Assembly (NCBI RefSeq): GCF_028693505.1
Contig: NZ_JAQUVF010000025.1
Span: 1-32,085 of the forward strand
Reading direction: 5' to 3'
DNA length: 32,085 bases
From: Oscillibacter sp.
GTDB taxonomy: Bacteria > Bacillota > Clostridia > Oscillospirales > Oscillospiraceae
Shown: positions 1,057 through 18,940 of the stretch, in pieces
Layout: each line of letters starts with the position of its first letter
How positions within the stretch are numbered: position 1 is the stretch's first letter
Program-made: the position numbers and the translations under genes
The notes under the pieces: model-generated
What the model was told of the DNA's origin: nothing
What the model saw: the letters and a program-made list of their open reading frames with translations, nothing else
The model's database searches: none

Positions 1057-1096
1057 GCGGCTTTCACCTAAAATTTGAGGGAGCGAGGAACATTTC

Positions 1097-1999
1097 ATGG
1101 ACTGGTCAAGATTTGGGCAGTTGGCGGCGGATATGGGAACCCTGTTGGCCAAGTACGGCAAGGTAAACTATCTCAGCGGCATGGGCCGCACACTGGCGCT
1201 GGCAATCATCGCCACCGCCATCGGCTGCTTCATCGGCCTTGCCTGCGGCGTTTTGCAGACCATCCCCCACGCGAAAACGGATCATCCCGTGAAGCGGTTC
1301 TTTCTGGGGCTTGTGCGGGGCGTTCTCCGGGTCTATATCGAGGTGTTTCGCGGAACGCCCATGATTTTGCAGGCCGTTTTTATTTTCTACGGCCTTCCCT
1401 ATTTCACCAACAACACCCTGCGCTTTGAGAGCATCTGGGCCGTCTCCATTCTGGTGGTGTCCATCAACACCGGCGCGTATATGGCGGAGTCCGTCCGGGG
1501 TGGCATCCTCTCCGTGGACCCGGGGCAGACGGAGGGGGCAAAGGCCATCGGCATGACCCATTTCCAGACGCAGACCTGCGTGATTCTGCCCCAGGCTTTG
1601 CGCAATATCATGCCCCAGATCGGCAATAACTTTATCATCAATATCAAGGATACCTCGGTCATGTTCATCATCGGCTTCTCCGATTTCTTTGCCGCCCACA
1701 AGGCGGTCTCCGGCGCGACCTTCACCTATTTCCCCTCCGCGACCATCGAGATGGCGGGCTATCTCACCATGACGCTGATCGCCTCCTTCCTGCTGCGGTG
1801 GATCGAAAAGCGGATGGACGGGTCCAACAGCTATGAGCTGGTGCAGCAGGATTCCCTGACCATGACCGCCGGCACGTACAACCACCCCGACAAGGGCAGC
1901 AACTATGATGAGCACAGCAAGGAGTACGGCAAAGAGCACCGGGAGAATCTGAAGAAGCCCCTGAAAAACAGGAATTTCACCGCGAGAGGAGAGCGCTGA
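1097..1999 (+). CDS. Polar amino-acid ABC transporter permease (HisM/GlnP type)
   Basis: 300 residues, an inner-membrane channel subunit of the binding-protein-dependent importer. Hydrophobic segments begin around residue 30 ([20 protein letters not shown]). The family stretch [20 protein letters not shown] follows. The cytoplasmic EAA-type loop that docks on the ATPase is seen as [20 protein letters not shown], then [12 protein letters not shown]. The last ~55 residues are an unusually long hydrophilic, charged tail (rich in Asp, Lys, Glu and Asn) not needed for the fold. The start at 1097 follows GGGAGCGAGGAA. The stop is one base before the ATPase start, so the two are translationally coupled. 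It acts with the lipoprotein at 184 and the ATPase at 2001. Confidence 0.88.
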
Positions 2000-2000
2000 C

Positions 2001-2741
2001 ATGGGCGAGATGATTTTGCAGGTCGACCACCTGTCCAAGAGCTTCGGCAGCCACGAGGTCCTGCGGGATATCGATTTCACGGTGGAAAAGGGTGACGTGA
2101 CCAGCATCATCGGCGCTTCCGGCTCCGGAAAGAGCACCCTTTTACGATGCATCAATCTGCTGGAGGTCCCCACCTCCGGCGAGATCCTCTACCATGGGGA
2201 GAACGTGGCGGGCCGGGGCGTCAATGCCGCCGCCTACCGCGCCCATGTGGGTATGGTGTTCCAGTCCTTTAACCTCTTTAATAATATGACGGTGCTGGAA
2301 AACTGCTGCGTAGGGCAGAGGAAGGTGCTCAAAAAGAGCGGCGAAGCCGCCCGGGAGCACGCCATGGAGTATCTGGAGAAGGTGGGCATGGCCCCATATA
2401 TCAACGCCAAGCCTCGGCAGATCTCCGGCGGACAAAAGCAGCGGGTGGCCATCGCCCGGGCGCTGGCCATGGACCCGGAGGTGCTGTTGTTCGACGAGCC
2501 GACCTCCGCGCTGGACCCGGAGATGGTGGGCGAGGTGCTGAGCGTGATGCAGACGCTGGCCCGGGAGGGCATGACCATGCTGGTGGTCACCCATGAGATG
2601 GCCTTTGCCCGGGATGTGAGCAGCCAGGTGGTGTATATGAATCAGGGGGTCATCTGCGAACAGGGCTCTCCCGCCGGCCTTTTCGGCAATCCCCAAAGGC
2701 AGGAGACCAAGGACTTCCTCTCCCGCTTCCGGAAAAGTTAA
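2001..2741 (+). CDS. Polar amino-acid ABC transporter ATP-binding protein (GlnQ type)
   Basis: 246 residues, the usual length for GlnQ/HisP ATPases. Walker A is GASGSGKST (residues 38-46), the Q-loop lies in [10 protein letters not shown], the signature is [15 protein letters not shown], Walker B is [14 protein letters not shown], and the switch His is in VVTHEM. It hydrolyses ATP on the cytoplasmic face to drive the importer. The start follows GAGAGGAGAG, with one base between the permease stop and this ATG. It is the last gene of the three-gene operon, and a strong hairpin terminator follows 35 bp downstream. The ATPase itself does not show substrate specificity. Confidence 0.92.
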
Positions 2742-2776
2742 AAAAACCTCTGCCTGAAGCGGAGGTTCCCAAAGAA

Positions 2777-2809
2777 AAGCGCTCCGAAACCAACGGTTTC
2801 GGAGCGCTT
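2777..2809. terminator. Bidirectional intrinsic terminator
   Basis: A perfect 15-bp stem (AAGCGCTCCGAAACC paired with GGTTTCGGAGCGCTT) with a 3-nt AAC loop. CTTTTT follows on the plus side, and on the minus strand the hairpin is followed by TTTTC. It lies between two convergent operons and can serve both. Confidence 0.85.
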
Positions 2810-2814
2810 ACTTT

Positions 2815-4338
2815 TTATGCCTGCAAGAGGCCTCTTGCCACCAGCGCCTGACGCGCCACGTCGTCCACGCTTTGGCCCTGCACGTCCACCTGATAGGTCA
2901 TTTCCACCATATCCTCGTTGCGGATGGTGCCGGAGAGCAGGTTCAAAACCTCCTCCAGATCGGGGGCCGTATCGGCAAACTTTTCAAAGGTGTCATTTCG
3001 CACCAAAAACGCGCCGTTGTAGTCGGGGAAGAAGTTCCGATCGTCCTCCAGCACCTTCAAATTGGCCTTGCGGTTCAACCCGTCGGTGGCATAGACCTCC
3101 GTCACGTCGAAGCTGCCCTTTTCCGCTGCGGCGTATTTGAGACTCACGTCCACGGACACCTCGTCCTTGAATTTCAGACCGTAAAATTCCGTGAAGGGTC
3201 CGAATTTCATGCTGCCCTCCTGGGTGAAGAACTCGTGCTCCGCGCCGAATACCAGCTGATCGGCAATGGGAAGAAGATCGCTGACCGTCTCAAGGCCGTA
3301 TTGGTCCGCAACGGCTTGGGGCACGGCGATGGCGTAGGTGTTGTCAAAGCCCAGCTTCTCCAGCATCCGCAGGCCGTACCGCTCACCCGCCGTCTGGTCT
3401 GCAAAGTCATAGATGGAAAGGCCCTCCGGCACGTCGGCGGTGTCCAGCTGCAAAAAGGTGGTCAGCAGCGTGCCGTCGTAGGAGATCATGAGATCGCAGG
3501 TGTGGTCGTTTCCGATGAGGGATTTGAAATTGTTCACCTGCGACATCTGGTCCTGAATGGTAACGGTGAGGTCCGTCCGCTCCTCCACCAGCAGCTTTAC
3601 CATGTGGTGCATGATCTGGGTTTCGGAGTAGTCGCCGTCGTAGAGCATCAGCTCGTCGGCCCCGCCGCTTTTTCCCACGCCGTAGGGGAGCAGCAGGCAA
3701 AAGGCCAGCAAAATGGCTCCCACCGGAATCCACATGCTCCGGGAGCCGCCCTTGTTTTTGCGCATCTGCCGCTCGAAGAAGCCCATCAGCAGGTCCAGCA
3801 CCACGGCAATGACCATCAGCGCGCCGGTGCCGGAGAGGATGAGGGTCATATCCTGAATGCGGATGCCGCGGTTAATCATGCCGCCAAGACCGCCGCCGCC
3901 CACGAAGGCCGCGAACACAGCGGTGCCGATGGCGTTCACCACCGCGATGCGGATGCCGGTGAACACCGTGGGGAAGGCGAGGGGGAATTCCACCCGCAAA
4001 ACCCGGTAGGTCCGGCTCATGCCCATGCCCCGGGCGGCTTCCTTTACACCGGGGTCCACCTGATCGAGACCGAGGCAGGTGTTGCGCACGATGGGCAGCA
4101 GGGAATACAGGGTGATGCCGAGAATGACGGTGACCTTACCGGCCCCCAGAAACACCATGATGATGCCCAGCAGCGCAAGGGAGGGAATGGTTTGCAGCAG
4201 GTCCACCACCCGCAATATGATCCCCCGGGCCTTGGGATAGACATAGGCGAGAATCCCCAGCGGCAGACCGATGGAAATGGAGAGGATACCGGCGGCCAGC
4301 ACGATGAAAAGGTGCTCGCAAACGATGGCCCAGCTCAT
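2815..4338 (-). CDS. Osmoprotectant-type ABC transporter: permease fused to substrate-binding domain (OpuCB/OpuCC-like)
   Basis: 507 residues with two parts. Residues ~1-195 are a permease of the OpuB/OpuC/ProW class: several hydrophobic segments, and the EAA-type loop AARGMGMSRTYRVLRVEFPL. After a charged linker (MRKNKGGSRS) and a further hydrophobic segment (~205-225) comes a binding domain of the OpuAC/ProX quaternary-amine type, from DELMLYDGDYSETQIMHHMV to the C-terminus. The extra hydrophobic segment would place this domain outside the cell, tethered to the channel. Such fusions are known in the family. Last gene of the minus-strand operon; it overlaps the preceding permease gene by 4 bp. 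The likely substrate class is betaine, carnitine or choline, by family only. Confidence 0.87.
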   Translation of the reverse strand: MSWAIVCEHLFIVLAAGILSISIGLPLGILAYVYPKARGIILRVVDLLQTIPSLALLGIIMVFLGAGKVTVILGITLYSLLPIVRNTCLGLDQVDPGVKEAARGMGMSRTYRVLRVEFPLAFPTVFTGIRIAVVNAIGTAVFAAFVGGGGLGGMINRGIRIQDMTLILSGTGALMVIAVVLDLLMGFFERQMRKNKGGSRSMWIPVGAILLAFCLLLPYGVGKSGGADELMLYDGDYSETQIMHHMVKLLVEERTDLTVTIQDQMSQVNNFKSLIGNDHTCDLMISYDGTLLTTFLQLDTADVPEGLSIYDFADQTAGERYGLRMLEKLGFDNTYAIAVPQAVADQYGLETVSDLLPIADQLVFGAEHEFFTQEGSMKFGPFTEFYGLKFKDEVSVDVSLKYAAAEKGSFDVTEVYATDGLNRKANLKVLEDDRNFFPDYNGAFLVRNDTFEKFADTAPDLEEVLNLLSGTIRNEDMVEMTYQVDVQGQSVDDVARQALVARGLLQA

Positions 4339-4976
4339 CCGCCCACCTCCTTTTGGAGACCCCGGGGCGTCACCTTCTTTTGCAGAAGGTCAATCACCGC
4401 GCCGATGGCGATGGCAAGGATGGCTGCGGGGATGGCGCCCAGCAGGATCAGCGTGTTGTTGTTGGAGGACGTGCCCTGATAGACAAAGTTGCCAAGACCG
4501 CCCAGACCGATCATGGCGGCCAGCACCGCCCAGGAGACGGTGTAGACGGCGGCCATGCGGAGACCGGCGATGATGGTGGGCATGGCCAGCGGCAGCTCCA
4601 CCTTCAAAAGCACCTGAAAGGGGGACATACCACAGCCCAGCGCGGCTTCCACGTATTTGCGCTCCACGCTGAGAATCCCCGCGTAGGTATTTTTCAGCAC
4701 CGGGAACATGGCGTAGATGGACAGGGCGATGATGACCGTGGCGGGCACCATGCCCAGCCATAAAAAGAGCAGGCCGATGAACACCAGCCCCGGGATGGTC
4801 TGAAACACGGAGATGACCGGCAAAATTACGCCCGACCAATTGGGAATGCGGGACAGCAGCACGCCAAACGCCAGCCCCAGCGCAAAGCCGATGGCCACGG
4901 AGACCAGCACATACACCGTGTGAACGCCGACGGCTTTGACCAGCAGCGCGCCGTAAGTATCCAGAAGGCCTCTCAT
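4335..4976 (-). CDS. Osmoprotectant-type ABC transporter permease (OpuCB/ProW-like)
   Basis: 213 residues, the normal length of single-domain OpuCB/OpuCD permeases. Hydrophobic segments start at VHTVYVLVSVAIGFALGLAFG. The family motif VFQTIPGLVFIGLLFLWLGM follows, then the ATPase-docking loop EAALGCGMSPFQVLLKVELP and GLGGLGNFVYQG. It overlaps the ATPase gene upstream and the fused permease-receptor gene downstream by 4 bp each (ATGA), so all are translationally coupled. With the permease half of the neighbour it would form a heterodimeric channel. The second subunit carries the receptor, so no separate binding protein is needed. Confidence 0.88.
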   Translation of the reverse strand: MRGLLDTYGALLVKAVGVHTVYVLVSVAIGFALGLAFGVLLSRIPNWSGVILPVISVFQTIPGLVFIGLLFLWLGMVPATVIIALSIYAMFPVLKNTYAGILSVERKYVEAALGCGMSPFQVLLKVELPLAMPTIIAGLRMAAVYTVSWAVLAAMIGLGGLGNFVYQGTSSNNNTLILLGAIPAAILAIAIGAVIDLLQKKVTPRGLQKEVGG

Positions 4977-6085
4977 TTCGCATCCCCCCAGAGATTTTCC
5001 GCCACCGACCGCGCCACGCTGGTCTTGGTTACGATCCCCGCGATGGTTCCCTCGTCGTTCAGGACCACCACGTAGTTTGCGCCAGAGTCCAGAAGGTAAT
5101 CGAAGCTCTCCTTGGCGTTGTCGCCCACCTGGGCGGTCCGGGCGGTCTGACGGATCAGCGGCTCGATATTCGCAAGCCCCTGCCCCCAGTGGCGGATGTC
5201 ACCGATGGAGATGGTGCCCGCGTAGTGACCTTTTTCGTCGGTGACAAGAAGGGTGTCCACGCTGCCCCGGGCCATGCGCTCGGCACATTCCAAAACGCCC
5301 CGGTCCTTCCGGACCGTGAGAACGTTGGTGCGCATGAAGCTTTCCACCTTGGACGGCCCCGGCGCGTCTGTTGAATGCTTGCCTAAGAATTTTCGCACCC
5401 GGTCCGTGGCGGGGTTCTCCAGCATTTCCTCTGGAGAGGCCATCTGCACGATCTCGCCGCCGTCCATAAAGATGATGACGTCCGCCAGCTTCAGCGCCTC
5501 GCCCATGTCGTGGGTGACGAACACGATGGTTTTATTCAGCTTTTGCTGGAGACTTTTCACCTCGTCCTGCAAGACCTCCCGGGTTTGGGGGTCCAGTGCG
5601 CCGAAGGGCTCATCCATCAGCACGATGGGGGGCGAGGCCGCCAGCGCCCGCAAAACGCCGATGCGCTGCTGCTGACCGCCGGAGAGCTCCGTGGGGTATT
5701 TGTCCGCGTGCTGTTCCATGTTAACCAGCTTCAAAAGGTCCCGCACGATCTCGTCGCACTGGGTCTTATTGTACTTCAAAAGCTTTGGCACCACGCAGAT
5801 GTTCTGGGCCACCGTCATGTTGGGGAAGAGGCCGATCTGCTGGATGACGTAACCGATGTGACGGCGCAACTCCACCTTGTCGGAGGAGCGGATGTTCGCC
5901 CCGTCGATGGACACCGTGCCGGAGTCCGGCTCCAGCAGGCGGTTAATCATTTTCATGGTGGTGGTCTTTCCGCAGCCGGAAGGGCCGATGAGGACCACGA
6001 ACTGCCCGTCCTCGATGGTGAAGTTCAAATCCTTGAGGATGGGCGTTTTCCCGTAGCTTTTGCAGATGTGTTCAAATTGGATCAT
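4973..6085 (-). CDS. Osmoprotectant-type ABC transporter ATPase with C-terminal CBS domains (OpuCA/ProV-like)
   Basis: 370 residues. The ATPase core shows Walker A GPSGCGKTT (34-42), signature LSGGQQQRIGVLRAL, Walker B IVLMDEPFGALDP and FVTHDMGEAL. From about residue 250 two CBS repeats follow (FMRTNVLTVRKDRGVLECAE, and GANYVVVLNDEGTIAGIVTK). In related OpuA/OpuC ATPases the CBS pair senses ionic strength or binds cyclic di-AMP; that this one does is inference. The start ATG at 6085 lies inside the end of the regulator gene (4-bp overlap), preceded by AGGAGG, and the gene overlaps the next permease gene by 4 bp. It supplies energy for the two permease subunits downstream. Confidence 0.9.
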   Translation of the reverse strand: MIQFEHICKSYGKTPILKDLNFTIEDGQFVVLIGPSGCGKTTTMKMINRLLEPDSGTVSIDGANIRSSDKVELRRHIGYVIQQIGLFPNMTVAQNICVVPKLLKYNKTQCDEIVRDLLKLVNMEQHADKYPTELSGGQQQRIGVLRALAASPPIVLMDEPFGALDPQTREVLQDEVKSLQQKLNKTIVFVTHDMGEALKLADVIIFMDGGEIVQMASPEEMLENPATDRVRKFLGKHSTDAPGPSKVESFMRTNVLTVRKDRGVLECAERMARGSVDTLLVTDEKGHYAGTISIGDIRHWGQGLANIEPLIRQTARTAQVGDNAKESFDYLLDSGANYVVVLNDEGTIAGIVTKTSVARSVAENLWGDAK

Positions 6086-9711: not shown

Positions 9712-10509
9712 TTACAGATTTTTAAAACCGTTGAGGGAAAAGACCTCGTGCAGATCAACGTCCATGGTGGAGAGAACGTTCTCAATTTTCTGAACGGAAA
9801 TGGGCAGCGCCTTGGAGGCGGTCATCGCCTTTTCCGGATTCACCCGGAAGGAAGGCAGAATAACGCCGATGGAGGCCACCACCTTGTCCTGAAAGCGAAT
9901 CGGCGCGGCCACGCATTGGATGCCGGGTTCCACCTCGCCGTACTCATAGGCGATATTTGTGAGGCGGGTTTCCTCCATTTGAATATGGGCCCGGTAGAGA
10001 TTCAACTGCGGCGGCAGCTGCCCGCCGTCTTTGAAAAACAATTCTGTCAGTTCGCTCAGCTTAAAGTCGCACAAAAGGCACTTCCCGATTGCGCCAAGAC
10101 AGGCCAGCTCCGTTCGCCCGGGCGACTTGTAACAGCATACGGAGTCGGGGGGGTCCGTCCGGTGGAGAAAGAGCACATGATCCTCCTCCAGAGTACCCAG
10201 ACAGCAGGATTCCTCCATGCGGTGCGTCAGCTGCCGCATCTCCATGTCGATGAACTTATTCATGGAAATCTTATTGCGGTAGATGGAGGAGGCGTAAAAC
10301 AGATTGATCCCGATGGTATAGCGATTGGTGTGATAGTCCAGATCGATATAGCTGCGGGCGGCCATGGTTTGCAGAATTGGCAGAAGGCTGCTTTTGGGAG
10401 ATTCCAGCGCCTGCGCAATCTCTGTCAGCGTAAACCCCTCCGTGGTGGTGGAGAGCAAATCGAAAATATCCAGAACGCGGGATGTGGACCGATGAGATAC
10501 TTGGGCCAT
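9712..10509 (-). CDS. IclR-family transcriptional regulator
   Basis: 265 residues, a typical IclR length. The N-terminal winged helix spans about 8-70 (STSRVLDIFDLLSTTTEGFT, LTEIAQALESPKSSLLPILQ, NRYTIGINLF). The effector-binding part follows with the usual family features: CLGTLEEDHVLFLHRTD, ACLGAIGKCLLC, EYGEVEPGIQCVAAPI and VASIGVILPSF. IclR proteins bind small acids such as pyruvate, glyoxylate or aromatic acids. The start at 10509 has AGGAGGG eight bases upstream. The gene is divergent from the opine-dehydrogenase/TRAP operon, so it most likely controls it and itself. The effector cannot be read from sequence. Confidence 0.92.
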   Translation of the reverse strand: MAQVSHRSTSRVLDIFDLLSTTTEGFTLTEIAQALESPKSSLLPILQTMAARSYIDLDYHTNRYTIGINLFYASSIYRNKISMNKFIDMEMRQLTHRMEESCCLGTLEEDHVLFLHRTDPPDSVCCYKSPGRTELACLGAIGKCLLCDFKLSELTELFFKDGGQLPPQLNLYRAHIQMEETRLTNIAYEYGEVEPGIQCVAAPIRFQDKVVASIGVILPSFRVNPEKAMTASKALPISVQKIENVLSTMDVDLHEVFSLNGFKNL

Positions 10510-10540
10510 GATTGGAACCCTCCTAAATAAAGCGAGCAGT

Positions 10541-10565
10541 TTATGGTTTCTTTTTTCTACCATAA
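10541..10565. promoter_or_regulatory. Candidate operator over the IclR promoter
   Basis: TTATGGT (10541-10547) and ACCATAA (10559-10565) form a perfect 7-bp inverted repeat with an 11-bp spacer. One arm covers the -10 box of the IclR gene, suggesting autoregulation. Binding is inferred from position. Confidence 0.45.
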
Positions 10566-10587
10566 CACGCAATGTAAAAAACGGCAA
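10559..10587 (-). promoter_or_regulatory. Probable promoter of the IclR gene
   Basis: On the minus strand TTGCCG and TATGGT are separated by 17 bp, about 50 bp upstream of the start codon. Each box matches consensus at four of six positions. Confidence 0.5.
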
Positions 10588-10625
10588 CACATTTTTGCCA
10601 GATTTCACAAAAAATTGAAAACTTG

Positions 10626-10653
10626 TTGACATTTTTTTGTTTTGATATAAAAT
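10626..10653 (+). promoter_or_regulatory. Sigma-A-type promoter of the opine-dehydrogenase/TRAP operon
   Basis: A perfect TTGACA is followed after 16 bp by TAAAAT. It lies 65 bp upstream of the first start codon. Confidence 0.75.
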
Positions 10654-10667
10654 GAAATTACGTTCTT

Positions 10668-10689
10668 ATATACGAAGTTGTTCGCATAT
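10668..10689. promoter_or_regulatory. Candidate operator just downstream of the operon promoter
   Basis: ATATACGAA and TTCGCATAT around GTTG form a 9-bp inverted repeat with one mismatch. It starts about 15 bp after the -10 box, where a bound repressor would block transcription. It is a good candidate for the divergent IclR protein; the match is positional only. Confidence 0.5.
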
Positions 10690-10717
10690 ACGCACAAGTG
10701 AAAATGGAGGCGATGGG

Positions 10718-11797
10718 ATGGAGCAGCTAAAATTCGCGGTTTTGGGAGCCGGGGCGGGTGGCCAGACGATGGCGGCCGTTCTCAGTAGCGGCGGGTATTC
10801 TGTGAAGCTCTATGATAACGACAGAGAGAAAATCGCGCGTCTCAATGAGCTGGGAAAGATCACGGTTACGGGCAAGTTCGCCTGTGAAGGCTTTCCGCAG
10901 CTGGTCACGGCCGACATTGCCGCGGCGGTGGCGGATGTGGATGTCATCATGGTGACGACCACCACGGACGCCCACCGTGAAATTGCGAATCTTTGCGCGC
11001 CGTATCTGCGGGACGGGCAAATCTTTTTGCTGAACCCGGGACATGTGGGCGGCGCGCTGGAAGTCCGTCACATCATCCGGGAGGTCCATGGCTGCCGCGC
11101 GGATGTCGTCATCGGAGAGACCGGGGATTTGATGTACGCCTGCCGCACCGCCGAGGTGGGGCAAACCTTCCAGTCCGGGGTGAAAAACAAAGTGGAGGTG
11201 GCTACGATTCCCGCCGGGGACGTAAAGCGCGTGATGGAGGCGCTGGGACCTGTCTTTCCAAATCTGACCGCGGCAAAAAATATTTTGGAGACCGGCTTTG
11301 AAGGCGGCGGCGCCATGCTGCATCCCATTCCCAGCCTGATGAATATTACCAACACGGACATGGGGCAGGGCTACGATTATTATATGGAGGGCATTACCCC
11401 CAGCGTTGCCCGGCTGGTTTCCGCCTGTGACGCAGAACGGTTGCGCGTGTGCCGTGCGCTTGGGCTGGAGGTTCCGTCCCTGGTAAAGACCCTGCAAAAG
11501 ATTTACGGATTGGAGCAGGAGGACCTTTATGATCTCCTTCAGCACAACAACGCGTACAGGGGACTGAAAAGCCCCATGAATTTGAAGCACCGCTTTCTTG
11601 TGGAGGATACCGTGTGCGGCCTGGTGCCGCTTTCCTCCATTGGCCGTATGCTGGGCGTGGAAACGCCCGTGATGGATGCCTTTATTGAGATCAGTAGCAT
11701 CGTCTGCGGACGCGATTTCCGGAAGGAGGGCCGCACGGCGGAAAAATTGGGACTGGCCGGAAAGACACTGGAGGAGATTTACGAACTGATTTCCTGA
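10718..11797 (+). CDS. NAD(P)-dependent octopine/nopaline dehydrogenase-family enzyme
   Basis: 359 residues, the usual length. The N-terminal Rossmann domain starts FAVLGAGAGGQTMAA, with GAGAGG at residues 10-15 as the dinucleotide loop. LLNPGHVGGALEV and IGETGDLMYACR follow. The C-terminal octopine-dehydrogenase domain includes LHPIPSLMN, in the place of the family's catalytic His/Asn region. Family enzymes join or split an amino acid and a 2-keto acid through a secondary amine, using NAD(P)H; some relatives act on other substrates. The start at 10718 has GGAGG seven bases upstream. It is the first gene of the IclR-linked operon, followed by a TRAP transporter and a dehydratase, which suggests catabolism of an imported compound rather than opine synthesis. 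Direction and substrate are inferred. Confidence 0.82.
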   Translation: MEQLKFAVLGAGAGGQTMAAVLSSGGYSVKLYDNDREKIARLNELGKITVTGKFACEGFPQLVTADIAAAVADVDVIMVTTTTDAHREIANLCAPYLRDGQIFLLNPGHVGGALEVRHIIREVHGCRADVVIGETGDLMYACRTAEVGQTFQSGVKNKVEVATIPAGDVKRVMEALGPVFPNLTAAKNILETGFEGGGAMLHPIPSLMNITNTDMGQGYDYYMEGITPSVARLVSACDAERLRVCRALGLEVPSLVKTLQKIYGLEQEDLYDLLQHNNAYRGLKSPMNLKHRFLVEDTVCGLVPLSSIGRMLGVETPVMDAFIEISSIVCGRDFRKEGRTAEKLGLAGKTLEEIYELIS

Positions 11798-11803
11798 GCG
11801 GCT

Positions 11804-11832
11804 CATTCCAGCGGCGTGTGCACCGCTGAATG
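11804..11832 (+). other. Intercistronic hairpin between the dehydrogenase and TRAP receptor genes
   Basis: CATTCCAGCGG pairs with CCGCTGAATG (10 bp with one bulged base) around a loop of 8 nt. No U tract follows, so it is more likely an mRNA-stability or processing element, useful for unequal expression of a receptor gene, than a terminator. Confidence 0.45.
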
Positions 11833-11870
11833 AAATAAAAAAGAGGTACTAAAAAACGGAGGGTGAAATT

Positions 11871-12911
11871 ATGAAGAAGTTCCTATCCATGCTTTTGGCT
11901 GTGGCCATGATGATGACCATGACAGCCTGCGGCGGGTCCAAGCAGGAAGCCCCGGCCCCGGAGAAGCCAGCTGAAAACACCCAAAAGGAAGAACCCGCAA
12001 AGAGCGACAGCAATCTGGACGAGAGCGCCCTGTATGCCATTGGCGGCGGCGCCACCGGAGGCACCTTTAACGCCATGGGCGCGGTATTCACTCAGTTTTT
12101 TAATGATGGCAAGGTGTTTGGCCAGTTCTCTGCCACGGCTACCACCGGCGGCGTGCAGAACGTCATGTTTATGGAAAACGGTACCTGCGACTTCGGTATC
12201 GTCGGACAGAGCGTGTTCGTTCAGGCTGCGGATGGCACCGACTCCTTCAAGGAGACCGGCGCCAACGAGAATCTGAAAATCATCGCGCCGCTGTACAGCG
12301 CGATCTTCCAGCAGTTTGTCGGCAAGGGAATCAAGTCCGAGGCGGACCTGCGGGGTAAAAAGCTGATCGTCGGCGGCCCCGGTTCCGGCGATCTGGCAAT
12401 TGCGGAAACCCTCTATGGCGCCATGGGGATGACGTTTGAAGACTTTGAGCCGCTGTATCTGGGCAGCAACGAGGGCGCGGAGACGATGAAGGATGGCCAC
12501 GCCGATGGCGCCATTGCCTTGACGCAGCTGCCGTTCTCCATCTTTGTGGAGCTGACCAATGCCGACAAGGCATACCTGATTCCTCTGGAGAAGTCCACCA
12601 TCGATACCATGTGCGAAACCAACGGTCACAGCTATCCGTCCTACTATCCCTCTGTGATTCCCGCGGATACCTATAAGAATCAGACGGAGGAGCTGCCCAC
12701 CTTTGCCACCGGTACATATTTTTGCTGCAGTGGGGATTTGAGCGATGAACTGGTCTATGAGCTGACGAAGTACATGTGGGAAAATATTGAGGATCTGAAC
12801 ACCCTGCACGCAGCTGTGGCGAATTTGACCATCGACGCGGTGAAGGACATTGCCGATATGCCCATCCATCCCGGCGCTTTGAAGTACTATCAGGAGCAAG
12901 GCATTTTGTAA
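11871..12911 (+). CDS. TAXI-family TRAP transporter substrate-binding lipoprotein
   Basis: 346 residues. The signal peptide ends in lipobox MTAC with lipid-bearing Cys20, and a Pro/Glu/Lys-rich linker follows. The mature protein shows TAXI-family features: YAIGGGATGGTFNAMG, TATTGGVQNVMFMENGTCDF, APLYSAIFQQFV, GKKLIVGGPGSGDLAIAE. It captures a small organic acid or amino acid outside the cell and delivers it to the fused permease encoded next. In this transporter class transport is driven by an ion gradient, not ATP. The start has GGAGGG eight bases upstream. The opine-dehydrogenase gene precedes it by 73 bp with a hairpin between. The ligand is unknown; known TAXI receptors bind dicarboxylates, glutamate and related compounds. 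Confidence 0.92.
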   Translation: MKKFLSMLLAVAMMMTMTACGGSKQEAPAPEKPAENTQKEEPAKSDSNLDESALYAIGGGATGGTFNAMGAVFTQFFNDGKVFGQFSATATTGGVQNVMFMENGTCDFGIVGQSVFVQAADGTDSFKETGANENLKIIAPLYSAIFQQFVGKGIKSEADLRGKKLIVGGPGSGDLAIAETLYGAMGMTFEDFEPLYLGSNEGAETMKDGHADGAIALTQLPFSIFVELTNADKAYLIPLEKSTIDTMCETNGHSYPSYYPSVIPADTYKNQTEELPTFATGTYFCCSGDLSDELVYELTKYMWENIEDLNTLHAAVANLTIDAVKDIADMPIHPGALKYYQEQGIL

Positions 12912-12941
12912 GAGCTGCGAATGACGCATAAGGAGGGGCCT

Positions 12942-14978
12942 ATGAATCGCGAGAAAAAGGGCCTTTTCCACAAAGGAACCGCTGCGGCGACAGAAAAACC
13001 GGAGGCTTCGGCCTCCGGTGTCGCTCCTGGGGAAGATTGTGCGGAAAAGGCGGACGAGATCCTGCGGGAGTATTCCCGGGAGGACAATACGAGAGCGCTG
13101 ACCAAGGTGGTCTCTTATATTGTTAATGTGTTTTCCCTGTTCATCTCTTTGTTTCTGGTATATACGGCTGCGTTTGGGCAGCTGCCCGCCATGCAGCAGC
13201 GCTCCTTGTATCTGCTGTGCGCCATGGTGATTTTGTTTCTGGTCTATCCCGCCTTCAGCAAGCACAGTGAAAAGGGCGTGGCTTGGTATGACTATCTGTT
13301 TGCGGCGGCCTCTCTGGGGTGCTGCCTGTATGCCTATGTCAACTATGAAGCCATTCTGATGCGGTTTGGAATTTCCAACTCCACGGACCAGTTTGTGTTC
13401 GTGATTCTGGCAATTCTGGTGCTGGAAGGCACCCGGCGGCTGGTCAGTCCCGCGCTGTCGCTGGTGACGCTGGTCTTTCTGGTCTACGCGTATTTTGGCA
13501 ACTACATGCCCGGCATGTTTCAAACCAAAGCCGGGGGACTGACCCGGATGGCCGACCATATGTTCATGATTCCGGAGGGGATTTTTGGCAGTCCTCTGGG
13601 CACGGCGGCGACCTACGTTTCCCTGTTCGTCCTGTTTAGCGCCCTTTTGCAGGAATGCGGTATGGGTGATTTTATTCAGGAAATTGCGCTGGCGCTGACG
13701 GGACGGTCTACCGGAGGTCCTGCCAAGGTGGCTGTGGTTTCCAGCGCGGCTTTCGGAACCATTTCCGGCGCCGCGGCGGCCAATGTGGTGGGAACCGGCA
13801 CCTTCACCATCCCCTTGATGAAAAAGTGCGGGTATCCGGCGGAATTCGCCGGGGCGGTGGAGGCATGCGCATCCACCGGCGGCCAGCTGATTCCGCCGGT
13901 TATGGGCGCGGCCTGCTTTATCATGGCGGAATACATCGGAATTCCTTATTCCAAAATCATGCTGGCAGGTTTGATCCCCGGGTTCCTATATTATATGAGC
14001 GTGTTTATCACGGTGGACCTGCGCAGCAAAAAGCTGGGTCTTGTGGGAATGCCCAAAGAGCAGCTGCCGGACGCCAAGGCGGCCATGAGGTCCCGGGGCC
14101 ATCTGCTGATCCCCTTTGTGGCGGTCATTTATCTGATTATCCGGCAGTATACCATCTCCTTTGCCGCCCTGATCGGGATTCTTCTGGTGATTGTGATTTC
14201 TCCTTTGAAAAAGGAAACCAGAATGTCCCCCAGACAGGTTGCCAACGCCTTTGTGGACGGCGGCAAGAAAACGGTGTCCTTCGGTGTGTCCTGCGCCTGC
14301 GTGGGCATGATCATCGGCGTTACGACGCTTACCGGCGTTGGAAACGTGCTGGGCAACTATATTCTGGAGATCTCCCAGGGCAATCTGCTTTTGACGCTGA
14401 TTCTGGTGATGATCATGTCCATCATCATGGGCATGGGAATGCCTACTGTTGCGGTGTATATCGTTTTGGCGACGGTGGCGGCTCCGGTACTCGTGAAGCT
14501 GGGCATCCCCACCCTGACGGCCCATTTCTTCTGCTTCTATTTCGGAATTCTGGCCTGTATCACACCGCCGGTCGCCGTGCCGTCCTATGCAGCCGCCGCG
14601 ATTGCGGGCAGCAATCCATCGCGAACGGGCTGGGTGGCGTTTAAAATGGCGATCCCGGCCTTCCTGATTCCCTACGTGTTTGTCTATGAGCCCAGTATGC
14701 TGCTCAATGAGATCGACGTGGTCAATACCACCGCCTGCATCTTTACCGCCATCATTGGCGTTTATCTGGTGGCGGTGGGGCTGGAGGGCTATCTGCTCCG
14801 CCCGATGGTGATGTGGAAACGGTGCTTGGCGTTTACGGCGGGCATTTTCTGCATTGTGCCGGAGCATATCACAGATTTGCTGGGCGTGGCGGTTCTGGTG
14901 TTTTTGGTTGTCACCGAGAGAAGAGCCAGAAAAGCCGAGCTGGCGCAATGCGGCAAAGAAAAAGAGAGGATTCATTGA
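12942..14978 (+). CDS. TRAP transporter permease, fused small and large subunits (TAXI type)
   Basis: 678 residues. The first ~65 are hydrophilic and charged. Then come many membrane segments: a DctQ-like part, then a DctM-like part with the hallmark SAAFGTISGAAAANVVGTGT, FTIPLMKKCGYPAEFAGAVE and ACASTGGQLIPPVMGAACFI. The repeated half includes IMGMGMPTVAVYIVLATVAA and ACITPPVAVPSYAAAAIAGS. It is the usual partner of TAXI receptors, here the preceding gene. The start at 12942 was preferred because AAGGAGGGG lies just upstream; the ATG at 12921 has none. Its stop is one base from the dehydratase start, so the two are coupled. This ties uptake to the dehydratase. Confidence 0.92.
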   Translation: MNREKKGLFHKGTAAATEKPEASASGVAPGEDCAEKADEILREYSREDNTRALTKVVSYIVNVFSLFISLFLVYTAAFGQLPAMQQRSLYLLCAMVILFLVYPAFSKHSEKGVAWYDYLFAAASLGCCLYAYVNYEAILMRFGISNSTDQFVFVILAILVLEGTRRLVSPALSLVTLVFLVYAYFGNYMPGMFQTKAGGLTRMADHMFMIPEGIFGSPLGTAATYVSLFVLFSALLQECGMGDFIQEIALALTGRSTGGPAKVAVVSSAAFGTISGAAAANVVGTGTFTIPLMKKCGYPAEFAGAVEACASTGGQLIPPVMGAACFIMAEYIGIPYSKIMLAGLIPGFLYYMSVFITVDLRSKKLGLVGMPKEQLPDAKAAMRSRGHLLIPFVAVIYLIIRQYTISFAALIGILLVIVISPLKKETRMSPRQVANAFVDGGKKTVSFGVSCACVGMIIGVTTLTGVGNVLGNYILEISQGNLLLTLILVMIMSIIMGMGMPTVAVYIVLATVAAPVLVKLGIPTLTAHFFCFYFGILACITPPVAVPSYAAAAIAGSNPSRTGWVAFKMAIPAFLIPYVFVYEPSMLLNEIDVVNTTACIFTAIIGVYLVAVGLEGYLLRPMVMWKRCLAFTAGIFCIVPEHITDLLGVAVLVFLVVTERRARKAELAQCGKEKERIH

Positions 14979-14979
14979 T

Positions 14980-16653
14980 ATGAGTGAAGTAAAAAGGAAA
15001 ATCAACAGCGATCTGGAGGATCGCATGACGCTGGACTGGCAGGGGACGCGGGCGTTTTTCTACGGCCTTGGCTATAACGACGCGGATATCGAAAAGCCCC
15101 GCGTGGGCATTATGAACACCTGGAACGAGATCAATCCCGGCCACATCCACCAGCGTCAGCTGGCGGACGCCGTGCGGGAGGGAATCATCGAAAAGGGCGG
15201 CCTGCCGTTTTTGTTTTACGGCGTGAACCTGTGCGACTGCGTGGGCGGGGGCGACTACGTGCTGCCCTCCCGGGATCTGCTGGTCAACGAGATCGAGCTC
15301 AACGCCAAGGCCCATCATCTGGACGCCATGGTGCTCATCGGCACCTGCGACAAGGTGGTCCCCGCCATGCTGATGGCGGCGGGCCGGGTAAATATCCCCA
15401 CGGTCATCGTCACCGGCGGCTACATGGAAACGCCCTATCTGGACGGCGAGCATGTGGACTTTATCGACGTGGGCGCCAGCATCTCCAAGGTGGAAGAGGG
15501 CGCCATGACCAAGGAAAAGTTCGATGAGCTGATCCATGTGTGCGCGCCCTGCAAGGGCGCCTGCGGCATGATGGGCACAGCCAACACCATGAGCCTGCTG
15601 ACCGAGACCATCGGCATGTCCCTGACGGGAAACGCCACCATGGCGGCGATTTCCGGCACGCTAATCAATCTGAGCCGGGATGCGGGTCGCAAGGTGATGG
15701 AGCTGTGGGAGAAGAACATCCGGCCACGGGACATCATCACGGAAAAGGCCATCGTGAATGCCATTCGGGTCTGCATGGCCATCGGCGGCTCCTCCAACAC
15801 CATTATCCACATCCCCGCTGTGGCCACCGAGGCCTGCCTGGACATGGATTGCAGCGCAATTTATGCCGAGGCTAGCTGCGAGGTGCCGCTGCTGATCGGC
15901 ATTCGTCCCAACGGGAAGTGCTGCATGGCGGACTTCGAGGCTGCCGGCGGACTTTCCGCCCTGCTCAACGAACTGTGCGGAAAGCTGGACCTTGCCGGCA
16001 TGACAGTCACGGGGAAAACGCTGGCGGAGAACATTGAGGGCCGCGTTACCCGCAATGCGCAGGTGATCCACTCGCTGGCGGCGCCGCTGGACAGCGACGG
16101 CGGCCTGATTCTCTGCAAGGGCAATCTGGTGCCGCAGGGCGCGTTCATCAAGCAGTCCGCGGTACCTGCCAAGCTGCATAAGTTCCGGGGCACCGCCAAG
16201 GTGTTCTACAATCAGGACGAGGCCATCGCGGCGCTGCGGGACGGCCGGATTCAGGCCGGCAACGTGGTGTTCATCCTCTATCAGGGCGTCAAGGCGGGAC
16301 CCCATACCTCCTATGCGTTTACCACGGCTTTGAAGGGTAGTCACCTCAAGGACGATGTGGCGACGGTGACGGACGGTCGCCTTTCCGGCGCGGCGTCCGG
16401 GGCCTGCTTTGGCTATGCCTCTCCCGAAGCCGCTCTGCGGGGACCGTTGTGCGCCGTGCAGGACGGGGACTTTGTGAATTACGACATTGAAAAGCGGGAG
16501 CTGAACATTGAGCTTTCCGACGAGGAGCTGGCGGAGCGCATGGCCCGGGCCGAGCTGAAGCTGGAGCCGAAAACCGGCTGGCTTTCCGTCTACCAGCGCT
16601 GCGTGGGTTCCATCTTGAAGGGAGCCACCCTGATCGAGGATCATCGCGCCTGA
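14980..16653 (+). CDS. IlvD/EDD-family dehydratase, probably for a sugar acid or other dihydroxy acid
   Basis: 557 residues. The family removes water from 2,3-dihydroxy acids to give 2-keto-3-deoxy acids, using an Fe-S cluster and Mg. Cluster motifs visible are GTCDK with Cys123 and CAPCKGACGMMGTANTM with Cys188, 191 and 195. The first motif is NTWNEINPGHIH, with Gly where [2Fe-2S] members have a third Cys. Gly at this place, together with Cys at 123 and 195, matches E. coli IlvD, a [4Fe-4S], oxygen-sensitive enzyme. Catalytic C-terminal motifs VTDGRLSGAASGACFGYASP and KAGPHTS-type GVKAGPHTSYAF are present. No other branched-chain biosynthesis genes are nearby. The coupling to the TRAP permease suggests a catabolic acid rather than valine synthesis. 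Substrate is unknown. Confidence 0.87.
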   Translation: MSEVKRKINSDLEDRMTLDWQGTRAFFYGLGYNDADIEKPRVGIMNTWNEINPGHIHQRQLADAVREGIIEKGGLPFLFYGVNLCDCVGGGDYVLPSRDLLVNEIELNAKAHHLDAMVLIGTCDKVVPAMLMAAGRVNIPTVIVTGGYMETPYLDGEHVDFIDVGASISKVEEGAMTKEKFDELIHVCAPCKGACGMMGTANTMSLLTETIGMSLTGNATMAAISGTLINLSRDAGRKVMELWEKNIRPRDIITEKAIVNAIRVCMAIGGSSNTIIHIPAVATEACLDMDCSAIYAEASCEVPLLIGIRPNGKCCMADFEAAGGLSALLNELCGKLDLAGMTVTGKTLAENIEGRVTRNAQVIHSLAAPLDSDGGLILCKGNLVPQGAFIKQSAVPAKLHKFRGTAKVFYNQDEAIAALRDGRIQAGNVVFILYQGVKAGPHTSYAFTTALKGSHLKDDVATVTDGRLSGAASGACFGYASPEAALRGPLCAVQDGDFVNYDIEKRELNIELSDEELAERMARAELKLEPKTGWLSVYQRCVGSILKGATLIEDHRA

Positions 16654-16686
16654 GCAAATTGCGCAGGAAACAGAAACTGCTGAAAA

Positions 16687-16732
16687 CGGCGCAAGGTCCT
16701 GCCGGGCACTTGCCGGGCAGGACCTTGCGCCG
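16687..16732 (+). other. Long perfect hairpin inside the operon
   Basis: A 17-bp perfect stem (CGGCGCAAGGTCCTGCC with its complement) and a 12-nt loop that can close further by GGCA/TGCC. It lies 34 bp after the dehydratase stop and 20 bp before the nitroreductase start. GCTGGGAAAGGAA follows, so there is no U tract and it is not a standard terminator. It may be an mRNA processing or stability element, or a palindromic repeat. Confidence 0.75.
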
Positions 16733-16751
16733 CTGGGAAAGGAAGCGTTTC

Positions 16752-17264
16752 ATGGAAGTCATGGAAGCCCTGAAGGGGCGTCAGAGCGTAAAGAGCTATC
16801 TGCCAAAAGCGGTGGAGCCGGAAAAACTGGAGAAGGTGCTTGAGGCCGGCAGACTGGCGCCGTCCGCCTTTAACCACCAATACCGCCGTTTTATCGTTGT
16901 GGACGATCCGGCGGTGAAGCGTCTGCTCCGGGAAAAGGCCGGCGCGCAGCCGATGATCGAACAGGCGCCGGTGGTCCTTGTTTTGTGTGCCACGGCGGAG
17001 ACCGAGTTTACGATGCCCTGCGGGGAAAAAAACTACCCCATCGACGCGGCGCTGTGCGGCGCCTATATGATGCTGGAAGCGTACGAGCAGGGCCTTGGGA
17101 CCTGCTGGCTGGGAGCGTTTGACGCGGAGGCGGTGAAGGACGTGCTGGGCATACCGGCGCAGACGCGGGTCGTCACCATGATTCCGCTGGGGTATCATGA
17201 CGGCACGCAGGAGCGCAAGAGCCGAAAGACGCTTGCGGAAATTGTGGGGCACAACCGATATTGA
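16752..17264 (+). CDS. Nitroreductase-family FMN-dependent oxidoreductase
   Basis: 170 residues, a short member of the family. The N-terminal FMN-phosphate motif is seen in LKGRQSVKSYLPKAVEPEKL, followed by LEAGRLAPSAFNHQYRRFIV. The C-terminal part has IDAALCGAYMMLEAYEQGLG, TCWLGAF and VVTMIPLGYHD, all family features. Enzymes of this fold use NAD(P)H and FMN to reduce nitro groups, quinones, enones or other electron-poor substrates. The start at 16752 was preferred because AAAGGAA lies ahead of it and the family begins here; a start at 16659 would add a stretch encoded by the hairpin. It may reduce an unsaturated or imine intermediate of the operon's pathway; that is inference. Confidence 0.82.
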   Translation: MEVMEALKGRQSVKSYLPKAVEPEKLEKVLEAGRLAPSAFNHQYRRFIVVDDPAVKRLLREKAGAQPMIEQAPVVLVLCATAETEFTMPCGEKNYPIDAALCGAYMMLEAYEQGLGTCWLGAFDAEAVKDVLGIPAQTRVVTMIPLGYHDGTQERKSRKTLAEIVGHNRY

Positions 17265-17296
17265 GGAGCGTGGGCCGCAGAGGGCCCGGTAAAGAG

Positions 17297-18163
17297 ATGA
17301 AAGAGAGAAAACAGGCGGTGGCGTTGATGCTGCTCTCCGCGCTATCCTTTTCCCTGATGCAGGTGGTGGTCAAGATTTCCGCCACCCATGTGGGAACCAT
17401 GCAGCAGGTCTTTTTCCGCAATCTGTTCAGCCTCTTTGTGACGTTTGTGCTGCTGCGGCGAAACCGCCTGCCGCTGATGGGACCGCGTGCGTATCGCCTG
17501 CCGCTGTTTGCACGGTCCTTTTTGGGATTTGTCGGTGTGGTGATGCTGTTCTATGCCAGTGCGGGCGCCCGGCAGGCAGACGTGGCGCTGCTGAACAGGA
17601 CGTCTGCCATTTGGGTGAGCGTGTTTGCGATGATCTTCTTAAAAGAGAAGATCTCCAAAGTGCAGGTTCCGGTCATTCTGCTGTGTTTGGCGGGGGCCTT
17701 TGTGGCCATGCGCCCTTCCTTTGAGTCTAACTTTTTGCCGCTGCTCCTGGCCTTTTTGACAGCGGTGAGCAGCGGCCTTGCCTACACCATGATCGCCTTT
17801 TGCAAAGGACACGTAAATCCGCTGACCGTTATTTTCCATTTCTCCCTATTCAGTACGGCTGCCGCCGGTATCCTGATGATTCCCGCCTTTGTAATCCCTT
17901 CGTGGCGGGATCTTATGATCTTGATTCTGATTGGAATCTTTGGCGCGGCAGGGCAGATCAGTCTTACCTACGCCTATCAAAAGGCCCCTGCGTCCGAGGT
18001 CAGCATTTATGATTATTCCGGCATTTTGTTTTCTGCCGTATTGGGATATTTCCTGCTGGGAGAAGCGCTTACCGCGTCCACTGTGCTGGGAGCTGCGCTG
18101 ATTGTCTGCGGGGCTTTGTGGTCCTATTTATATCATCAGCGGCAGGCCCAACCGGCAAGTTAA
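17297..18163 (+). CDS. EamA/DMT-family transporter (RhaT/YdcZ-like superfamily)
   Basis: 288 residues with about ten hydrophobic segments in two EamA-type halves. The first half includes LMLLSALSFSLMQVVVKISA and LNRTSAIWVSVFAMIFLKEK, the second AGQISLTYAYQKAPASEVSI and YFLLGEAL-type FSAVLGYFLLGEALTAS. Each half ends in the usual YLxLGE/FLKE-type pattern. Members export amino acids, nucleosides or drugs, or import sugars. Within this operon it may export a leftover amine or amino acid; this is a guess from context. The start at 17297 fits the family; the region 17261-17296 is also open but its TTG/GTG starts have poor ribosome sites. The ribosome site for 17297 is itself weak. Confidence 0.85.
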   Translation: MKERKQAVALMLLSALSFSLMQVVVKISATHVGTMQQVFFRNLFSLFVTFVLLRRNRLPLMGPRAYRLPLFARSFLGFVGVVMLFYASAGARQADVALLNRTSAIWVSVFAMIFLKEKISKVQVPVILLCLAGAFVAMRPSFESNFLPLLLAFLTAVSSGLAYTMIAFCKGHVNPLTVIFHFSLFSTAAAGILMIPAFVIPSWRDLMILILIGIFGAAGQISLTYAYQKAPASEVSIYDYSGILFSAVLGYFLLGEALTASTVLGAALIVCGALWSYLYHQRQAQPAS

Positions 18164-18187
18164 AGATTTTATATGGAGGCAATGACA

Positions 18188-18577
18188 ATGGCACCTGAAA
18201 AAATTCAAATTGTTCCCAAAGGGGAGACATTGAAAACCAAGTGGTCCCGCGCGATCCGCTACGGAGACCTGATTTTTACCACCGCCCACTCCGCCACAAG
18301 GAGCGACGGCACCATGCCCACCACGCCGGAGGAGCAGATTCGCGGCTGTTTTGAAAGCTTGAAGAATACGCTGGAATCCGGCGGCAGCGGCATGGACATG
18401 GTGCTGCACTGCGACTGCTTTCTGGCGCACCGCGAGGACTTTGCCCTGATGAACCAGATTTTTGACGAGTACTTTCTGGGAGAGGGAGTCCCCACCACCC
18501 GCAGCGTCACAGAGGTCAATTTCACGGCGCCGAAGTTTCTTTTTGAGATTCAGGCGGTTGCCGGCGTGCGGGACTGA
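18188..18577 (+). CDS. RidA-family (YjgF/YER057c/UK114) imine/enamine deaminase
   Basis: 129 residues, the normal length. The catalytic Arg105 in VPTTRSVTEV and Glu120 in FLFEIQAVA fall at the same residue numbers as in E. coli RidA. This supports an active deaminase that hydrolyses reactive enamines or imines to keto acids and ammonia. The N-terminus also fits (WSRAIRYGDLIFTTAHSATR). The start at 18188 was chosen because GGAGG lies eight bases upstream; in-frame ATGs at 18173 and 18182 sit on or too close to the ribosome site. Last gene of the operon, 24 bp after the EamA gene and before a strong terminator. An imine-clearing enzyme fits beside an opine-type dehydrogenase, whose reaction passes through an imine. 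Confidence 0.9.
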   Translation: MAPEKIQIVPKGETLKTKWSRAIRYGDLIFTTAHSATRSDGTMPTTPEEQIRGCFESLKNTLESGGSGMDMVLHCDCFLAHREDFALMNQIFDEYFLGEGVPTTRSVTEVNFTAPKFLFEIQAVAGVRD

Positions 18578-18628
18578 GCGCAAATACCGGGGAGCTGCCA
18601 AGAACGGGCGAAAAATCCGCAAAGGGAT

Positions 18629-18665
18629 AAAAAGGGCCGGCTGTATGGTACAGCCGGCCCTTTTT
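18629..18665 (+). terminator. Intrinsic terminator of the IclR-linked operon
   Basis: AAAAAGGGCCGGCTGTA pairs perfectly with TACAGCCGGCCCTTTTT around a TGG loop: 17 bp followed by a T run. It separates the catabolic operon from rpoB. Confidence 0.92.
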
Positions 18666-18671
18666 GCGCAA

Positions 18672-18697
18672 AACAGCCGACCATTTGGTCGGCTGTT
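18672..18697. promoter_or_regulatory. Second hairpin/palindrome between the terminator and the rpoB promoter
   Basis: AACAGCCGACCA and TGGTCGGCTGTT form a perfect 12-bp inverted repeat around TT. It ends 12 bp upstream of the rpoB -35 box. Its CAGCCG core is shared with the preceding terminator, so the four arms could pair in alternative ways. It could be a back-up terminator (AATTTT follows) or a protein-binding site. Confidence 0.5.
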
Positions 18698-18709
18698 GGA
18701 TAATTTTCC

Positions 18710-18738
18710 TTGACACAGCATGAGATCTGTGGTAGAAT
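18710..18738 (+). promoter_or_regulatory. Sigma-A promoter of rpoB-rpoC
   Basis: A perfect TTGACA, a 17-bp spacer and TAGAAT (five of six). It lies 202 bp upstream of the rpoB start codon and directly after the terminator of the previous operon. Confidence 0.85.
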
Positions 18739-18744
18739 AAATCG

Positions 18745-18940
18745 CTTATATGATGATGGAAATAGAACGCCATTCTTTATTAGCTACGTACAAGATAGCA
18801 TATTTCCCATGACAATGCAAGAGCAGGAAACAAACGTTTTAACAACGCTCCCTCGTGTGTCCTGCCATGCTGCTTGAAAGAAATGACTTGCCGCCTCCGC
18901 CGGACAGGACGGGGACGGCAGAAGAAAGGTGAATGAGAAG
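18745..18940 (+). other. About 195-nt untranslated leader of rpoB
   Basis: No convincing gene is seen here. The part next to the ribosome site can fold: TGCCGCCTCCGCC (18889-18901) pairs with GACGGGGACGGCA (18908-18920), 13 positions with two C-A mismatches and one G-U. A weaker pairing joins GCAGGA and TCCTGC further upstream. The hairpin ends only 3-4 bases before the purine-rich ribosome site, so it could affect translation of rpoB. No known riboswitch was recognised. Confidence 0.4.

Follow-up and report, generated by a model that had tools for sequence, protein, structure and literature searches.

The closest PDB relative of the opine-type dehydrogenase considered in this work is ArODH of Arthrobacter sp. 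1C (1bg6, N-(1-D-carboxylethyl)-L-norvaline dehydrogenase; E 1.2e-84), which the accessible part of one paper gives as the nearest template of metagenomic opine dehydrogenases (PMC10787698). A second enzyme of the same gene set can be compared to the IlvD/EDD dehydratases, among them L-arabinonate dehydratase (5J84), D-xylonate dehydratase (5OYN), dihydroxy-acid dehydratase and 6-phosphogluconate dehydratase. Here we analyze a stretch of 32,085 nucleotides from Oscillibacter sp. (hereafter the window; contig C38 of a genome of 2.06 Mb that is 97.65% complete), in which we confirm, at 9712-18665, a predicted operon of seven genes in one direction together with an IclR gene divergent from it. 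We tentatively read this operon as taking up and breaking down an N-substituted amino acid by means of an IlvD-like elimination and clean-up by RidA. A preliminary description of the locus knew of no described pathway with this gene set, and we likewise found no report describing it in the open-licence literature.

The window dehydrogenase resembles ArODH over its whole length and carries His202, Arg292 and Asp297 at the same numbers, but it belongs to an operon for transport and dehydration. In contrast to the four dehydratases named above, the IlvD branch of the window has no conserved acid at the position of Glu463, a shorter loop after the Cys-Asp motif, a score below the ilvD cut-off, and a RidA partner. 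Iron-sulfur L-serine dehydratases and UxaA/GarD proteins adjoin the same opine-dehydrogenase clade in relatives, but are not in the window operon; the IlvD, serine-dehydratase and UxaA/GarD folds are mutually unrelated. A further partner of octopine-type dehydrogenases, a B12-binding protein (PMC2667541, as far as the accessible part of the paper goes), occurs in distant clades and not in that of the window. The features of the operon are as follows (L033 and L078 are related loci described below).

9712-10510, minus strand: IclR-family regulator (PF09339 and PF01614 above cut-off; the open frame extends to 10632)
10626-10653, plus strand: promoter-like TTGACA-16-TAAAAT (11/12 consensus matches)
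10667-10690, plus strand: palindromic operator-like site TATATACGAA-N4-TTCGCATATA (position shared with L033 and L078)
10718-11797, plus strand: opine-type (octopine/nopaline family) dehydrogenase (PF02317, 148.3 bits, cut-off 30)
11871-12911, plus strand: TAXI-type TRAP solute receptor with a lipoprotein-like start, by eye (TIGR02122, 215 bits, cut-off 84)
12921-14978, plus strand: fused TRAP permease (TIGR02123, 683 bits, cut-off 321)
14980-16653, plus strand: divergent-branch IlvD/EDD-fold dehydratase (PF00920 and PF24877; below the ilvD cut-off)
16752-17264, plus strand: nitroreductase-family flavoprotein (PF00881, 101 bits)
17297-18163, plus strand: EamA-family exporter-like protein (PF00892, 108 bits)
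18173-18577, plus strand: RidA-fold imine/enamine deaminase-like protein of a narrow subfamily (PF01042)
18634-18665, plus strand: intrinsic terminator hairpin with a T-run (read by eye; not listed by the pattern scan)

The gene families, open frames and order given in the preliminary description agree with these profile matches, and the terminator it placed at 18665 can be seen there. Several of its gene starts had to be corrected: that of the opine dehydrogenase moves to 10718 (a ribosome-binding-like ggagg lies at 10706, and 10652 falls inside the promoter), and those of IclR, the nitroreductase and EamA to about 10510, 16752 and 17297. Starts were set by eye and with the home-made codon model that also supplied the gene calls; calculated from the revised coordinates, the gaps among the seven genes are 73, 9, 1, 98, 32 and 9 bases.

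Conservation of the gene set

The co-conservation that the preliminary description had proposed as a check is borne out, since the eight-gene set recurs in order in one relative and partly in others. In L033, a locus of the congener G291, all eight genes are found in identical order, with identities to the window of 92% for IlvD, 89% for RidA, 86% for TRAP, 85% for IclR, 81% for TAXI, 76% for the nitroreductase, 72% for EamA and 67% for the opine dehydrogenase. Five of the genes (IclR, opine dehydrogenase, EamA, IlvD and RidA) recur in L078 (G309), where they adjoin an amidohydrolase, an M20-like peptidase and two transport systems, identified by eye as DctPQM-type and peptide-type ABC. In L077 (G336), the opine dehydrogenase, TAXI, TRAP, EamA and RidA genes are accompanied by MATE, and a divergent IclR gene is followed by two IlvD genes.

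Among 86 genomes of the genus, the IlvD branch (E<=1e-130) is found in 5 and the close opine dehydrogenase (E<=1e-100) in 9, and all 5 fall among the 9 (hypergeometric 3.6e-6, with both thresholds picked after the tables were seen). The two genes share one locus in 4 of the 5 genomes and lie far apart in G379. When the best 120 matches of each protein, on unnamed contigs, are compared by eye, seven pairs of opine-dehydrogenase and IlvD matches have an equal longest-contig value (53732, 3863400, 8652, 6525, 10235, 10872 and 21537), as do RidA and IlvD matches at 10872, 5616 and 3427; the pairs at 2115 (opine dehydrogenase and IlvD) and 1780 (RidA and IlvD) were not counted, because these contigs are too short for both whole genes. 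As a sign of co-location the shared values are suggestive only. The IlvD relatives number 7270, some of them in Aminivibrio, Paratissierella and Sedimentibacter.

These counts bear on the idea that two unrelated modules, one for opine use and one formed by IlvD and RidA, merely share an inducer and a transcript. Each module is indeed found alone (L079-L083 vs. L139 and L144), but the presence of the close opine dehydrogenase in every IlvD-branch genome of the genus and the seven contig pairs tell against it, and we consider such a union of unrelated modules quite unlikely. The close opine dehydrogenase also occurs in broken or partial form at L082:9997-11087 (G379) and L088:9373-10206 (G309), one copy adjoining a nitroreductase-family gene and the other an EamA fragment.

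A lyase slot beside the opine dehydrogenase

The residues expected of an opine dehydrogenase are in place in the window protein and its relatives. The glycines of the Rossmann GxGxxG motif are kept in 22/22 (G10), 22/22 (G12) and 21/22 (G15) aligned sequences, and H202 and R292 in 22/22 and D297 in 21/22, with numbering identical to 1bg6; we take these last three to be the catalytic residues. The assignment in the preliminary description therefore stands, as a predicted activity.

Neighbors within 8 kb were clustered for 64 loci of octopine-type dehydrogenases, each of at most 20 kb, and a tree was calculated for 62 of them, excluding L082 (a frame-split gene) and L088 (a 114-residue fragment). 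A replacement gene-call set was used for L038 and L079, as the first set missed a gene. In this tree the window belongs to a clade of 12 loci with support of 99/92, and a dehydratase or ammonia-lyase gene of the IlvD, GarD/UxaA or SDH_alpha family lies nearby at 13/13 clade loci (the 12 and L082), compared to 3/50 loci outside it (L102, L107 and L114, all SDH; p 5e-11). L088, whose 10.6 kb show no dehydratase cluster, did not enter this count; a looser count adding the second SDH-like cluster of L087 gives 4/50 (p 2e-10). The IlvD neighbor of L034 is of the ordinary type, and this locus was counted via its SDH genes. Contig ends truncate several loci (L035, L036, L041, L083, L102 and L104, for example), and a gene not found at these counts for little. 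GarD-domain copies number 0 to 3 per genus genome, and the locus copy is the only one in G345 and in the half-complete G365, while G100, of another genus, has ten GarD-domain matches.

Three unrelated lyase families in one slot suggest a shared job, which would be the elimination of water from a 2-hydroxy or 2-amino-3-hydroxy acid. The serine-dehydratase type acts on a 2-amino-3-hydroxy acid. In distant octopine-type clades one finds instead a B12-binding protein, at 19 loci, or an ornithine-cyclodeaminase-family protein, at 10. The former is seen at L098-L100, L103-L106, L110 (555 residues), L112, L113, L115, L116, L040-L045 and L047, and its link with pfam02317 was reported in 2009, according to the accessible portion of PMC2667541. 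L128:1080-12616 (G100) repeats the theme of the window with a different imine-type dehydrogenase fold: an ornithine-cyclodeaminase-family gene lies together with a GarD-type dehydratase, PanB, peptide-type ABC genes and, judged by eye, an IclR-like gene.

The slot could also be read in reverse, and this is one of the two strongest rivals to the catabolic reading: an imported hydroxy or amino acid would be turned into a 2-oxo acid by the dehydratase and then coupled to an amino acid by the opine dehydrogenase, a fermentation redox sink that uses NADH, and EamA would export the opine. IlvD, GarD and serine-dehydratase types all give 2-oxo acids, which are direct substrates of opine dehydrogenases, and all three families are present at opine-dehydrogenase loci. 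EamA is found at 9/9 close opine loci of the genus and at L083 (our queries did not find it at L035, L036 or L038), and the accessible text of PMC10787698 describes opine dehydrogenases as coupling oxo acids with amino acids. A reductive route is harder to reconcile with the IlvD-RidA core that occurs without the dehydrogenase (see below). The source bacterium of the closest characterized opine dehydrogenase, moreover, was reportedly grown on opines. On balance we regard the reverse direction as unlikely.

RidA accompanies the IlvD branch

When four RidA queries were run at E<=1e-4 against 21 stretches from 19 loci, RidA tracked the IlvD protein rather than the opine dehydrogenase. RidA is present at 6/6 loci with an IlvD branch of at least 52% identity (the window, L033, L077, L078, L144 and L139) and was found at 0/9 close opine-dehydrogenase loci without this branch (p 2e-4 vs. 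the 6/6) and at 0/4 loci of a 44-46% IlvD branch (L134-L137). EamA accompanies five and the nitroreductase four of the six IlvD-RidA loci. Two of them have no opine dehydrogenase: L139 (G379), with the order nitroreductase, IlvD, DctPQM and RidA, the last being only 33% identical to the window protein, and L144 (G236, another genus), with the order IlvD, IlvD, nitroreductase, EamA, MATE and RidA. Upstream in L144/L145 lie an M20 peptidase, peptide-type ABC genes (named by eye) and an S9 peptidase.

The role given to RidA in the preliminary description, that of a helper of the opine dehydrogenase, is not supported, since RidA follows IlvD and was found at none of the nine close opine loci that lack it. 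The simplest reason for the pairing would be that the IlvD-branch enzyme forms an imine or enamine. The window RidA keeps the equivalents of Arg105, Asn88 and Glu120 of E. coli RidA, while Tyr17 and Cys107 are replaced by Trp and Val; its 45.3 bits against TIGR00004 are below the cut-off of 106 for Rid detoxifying hydrolases, and it belongs to a narrow subfamily with 41 relatives at E<=1e-20 among 48 candidates.

An IlvD/EDD branch with no conserved acid at Glu463

The window IlvD protein shows the features of its superfamily, namely both Pfam domains, the Cys-Asp-Lys motif, a third Cys and the TDGRxSG serine, and C123, D124, K125, C195 and S469 are kept in 42/42 aligned members of its branch; the predicted structure has a pLDDT of 90. 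Its 504.7 bits against TIGR00110 fall below the equivalog cut-off of 618, which two other genes of the genome pass. The Mg ligand Glu463 is described as fully conserved in the IlvD/EDD family in the accessible part of PMC5770437, and its equivalent is present in E. coli IlvD, Edd and four other aligned IlvD/EDD proteins. The 42 branch members, by contrast, have no conserved acidic residue at this position, which is His in the window; the most generous reading, at window position 442, gives E in 12/42 and D in 3/42. Compared to E. coli IlvD and Edd, 41/42 members have a shortened loop after the Cys-Asp motif, by 4 residues in 32. We considered Glu92 as a second lost Mg ligand and rejected it, as the loop that is shortened in the branch also has no Glu in E. 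coli IlvD and Edd; the counterpart of Glu92 is presumably the Asp retained in the Cys-Asp motif. An amino substrate cannot safely be deduced from the change at Glu463, a step we rejected in view of L134-L137, where the glutamate is also lost although a KDPG-type aldolase is close by in three of the four. These four loci represent a sister or more distant IlvD/EDD branch with Cys-Asp-Ser in place of Cys-Asp-Lys, and the aldolase is near the IlvD gene at L135-L137.

The genomic context of the window gene differs from that of two further IlvD/EDD genes in this genome that score below the ilvD cut-off, one of which lies by a KDPG aldolase and a PfkB kinase and the other by a DHDPS-family protein; no aldolase stands beside the window gene. 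Given this and its RidA partner, the enzyme looks unlike a sugar-acid dehydratase.

This bears on the second of the strongest rivals, that of the preliminary description, in which a polyhydroxylated N-carboxyalkyl amino acid (a plant opine or glycation product) would be oxidized to an imine, RidA would help to split it, and the IlvD enzyme would dehydrate the sugar-acid part. UxaA/GarD proteins, like the IlvD/EDD fold that the window protein shares, include sugar-acid dehydratases, and the opine-type active-site residues are present. For the IlvD/EDD family this is described in the accessible part of PMC5770437, and Oscillibacter is cited in a passage of PMC9501902 as a reported carboxymethyllysine degrader, with no gene named there. 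The pattern of RidA, with nine close opine loci where it was not found and an IlvD-RidA core that exists without opine dehydrogenase, fits this poorly, as does the missing aldolase. Opine oxidation, furthermore, yields an oxo acid and an amino acid, and not a 2,3-dihydroxy acid. We hold a sugar-type substrate to be improbable, and the dehydration of a sugar-like part put forward in the preliminary description is weakened both by the lack of an aldolase and by the peptide-uptake and peptidase genes at two related loci.

In G336 (L077:14549-20000 and L117:1-2745), two IlvD-branch genes are followed by PanB, formate-tetrahydrofolate (THF) ligase, a formiminotransferase-cyclodeaminase-family gene and FolD, a cluster that may represent catabolic use of PanB releasing methylene-THF and ending in formate and ATP. 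Of the 11 genomes searched for PanB, some of them incomplete, 8 of the genus gave no match, the window genome included, so it is not a required step in the window pathway; threonate or 4-hydroxy-2-oxobutanoate as the substrate, an idea taken from the PanB of L077, was rejected on this ground.

Regulation and uptake

IclR is divergent from the opine dehydrogenase in the window, L033, L077 and L078. A scan of the region gave 7 promoter-like sites compared to 4.8 expected, so the match at 10626-10653 is by itself no evidence. The palindrome behind it recurs with 0 mismatches in L033 and 2 in L078, and L077 has a diverged form visible by eye that the pattern search missed. Allowing up to 3 mismatches, one copy each is present in G000, G291 and G309, always at the opine-dehydrogenase gene (three of four genomes searched), and none was found in G336; the reversed pattern gave 0 matches and shuffles of the window 0/100. 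One site per genome fits a dedicated switch, with binding by IclR inferred, and the operon is probably controlled by its own IclR as a repressor at a single site just behind the promoter. The substrate-inducible uptake and catabolism operon of the preliminary description is supported as probable. Since there is a single operator-like site, the inducer, and hence the substrate, is directly screenable.

Both TAXI-TRAP models, TIGR02122 and TIGR02123, are matched above cut-off. In VcGluP, likewise a TAXI-TRAP receptor, Tyr45 and Gln93 matter most for glutamate, according to the accessible part of PMC11574862. When the alignment is followed by eye via the Thermus receptor, the window receptor seems to have Phe and Gly there, and a Gln at the next residue. 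Its ligand is thus probably not glutamate, since the two residues seem absent, and we set glutamate aside as the substrate; a shifted alignment could keep the Gln.

An opine dehydrogenase, EamA and a transporter could also make, export and re-import a metal chelator of the staphylopine or pseudopaline type, and the peptide/nickel-type receptor of L079 has a weak match to the staphylopine receptor (121.6 bits, cut-off 800). With IclR in place of a metal regulator and uptake by TAXI-TRAP, an opine metallophore is very improbable, and we rejected a metallophore locus as neither a nicotianamine-synthase-like gene nor a metal regulator is among the eight genes, to which this search was confined.

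Genomic surroundings

Downstream of the terminator, the pattern scan lists a second hairpin (18672-18697) and a promoter-like site (18710-18738), followed by rpoB, which the operon end directly precedes (18577-18929). No rpoB was found in the 20-kb stretch of L033, where the operon thus seems to have another location. Upstream, at 112-6085, lie a gene for a family-3 (amino-acid type) ABC receptor and a divergent gene for a glycine-betaine type permease-receptor (OpuAC domain). An Rfam search of the window at the gathering threshold gave zero hits.

Proposed pathway

In the catabolic reading that we tentatively prefer, TAXI-TRAP would import an N-substituted (opine- or peptide-like) amino acid, from which the opine-type dehydrogenase would oxidatively strip the N-carboxyalkyl group to free the amino acid, with a 2-oxo acid and NAD(P)H as the other products. 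The IlvD-branch enzyme would then eliminate the beta-hydroxyl of the freed beta-hydroxy amino acid, and the resulting enamine or imine would be hydrolyzed by RidA to a 2-oxo acid and ammonia. EamA may export surplus product, and the nitroreductase-family protein may have some redox role. The IlvD-like enzyme and RidA would form the stable core, with interchangeable entries: an opine dehydrogenase or peptidases on the one hand, uptake by TRAP or a peptide-type ABC system on the other.

Several points weigh against this pathway. The RidA proteins of the window, L033, L077, L078 and L144 form one lineage (87-92% identical to that of the window), so the link to IlvD rests on about two independent events. 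The sister loci L134-L137, near an aldolase in three cases, mean that the loss of Glu463 alone is not proof of an amino substrate, and UxaA/GarD enzymes are classically sugar-acid dehydratases. We know of no IlvD-type enzyme that acts on an amino acid. The two IlvD genes of L077 lie outside the RidA transcript and precede PanB and the one-carbon genes, and two of the 12 clade loci with a lyase (L035 and L036) sit on short contigs. Finally, the observations proper are gene content and order, the operator-like site, conserved residues and co-occurrence, from which the substrate class, the direction and every chemical step are inferred. Taken as a whole, the interpretation in the preliminary description is partly supported.

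A broader proposal is possible, though doubtful: this IlvD/EDD branch with its changed metal site would be a beta-hydroxy amino acid ammonia-lyase with its own RidA, through which gut and other anaerobic amino-acid fermenters would consume N-substituted (opine-like or peptide-bound) amino acids, and which GarD- and serine-dehydratase-type enzymes would replace in sister loci. If true, the IlvD/EDD family would include a branch for amino acids whose metal site is altered, RidA would gain a partner enzyme that does not depend on pyridoxal phosphate, and the opine-type dehydrogenases of gut anaerobes would gain a catabolic setting.

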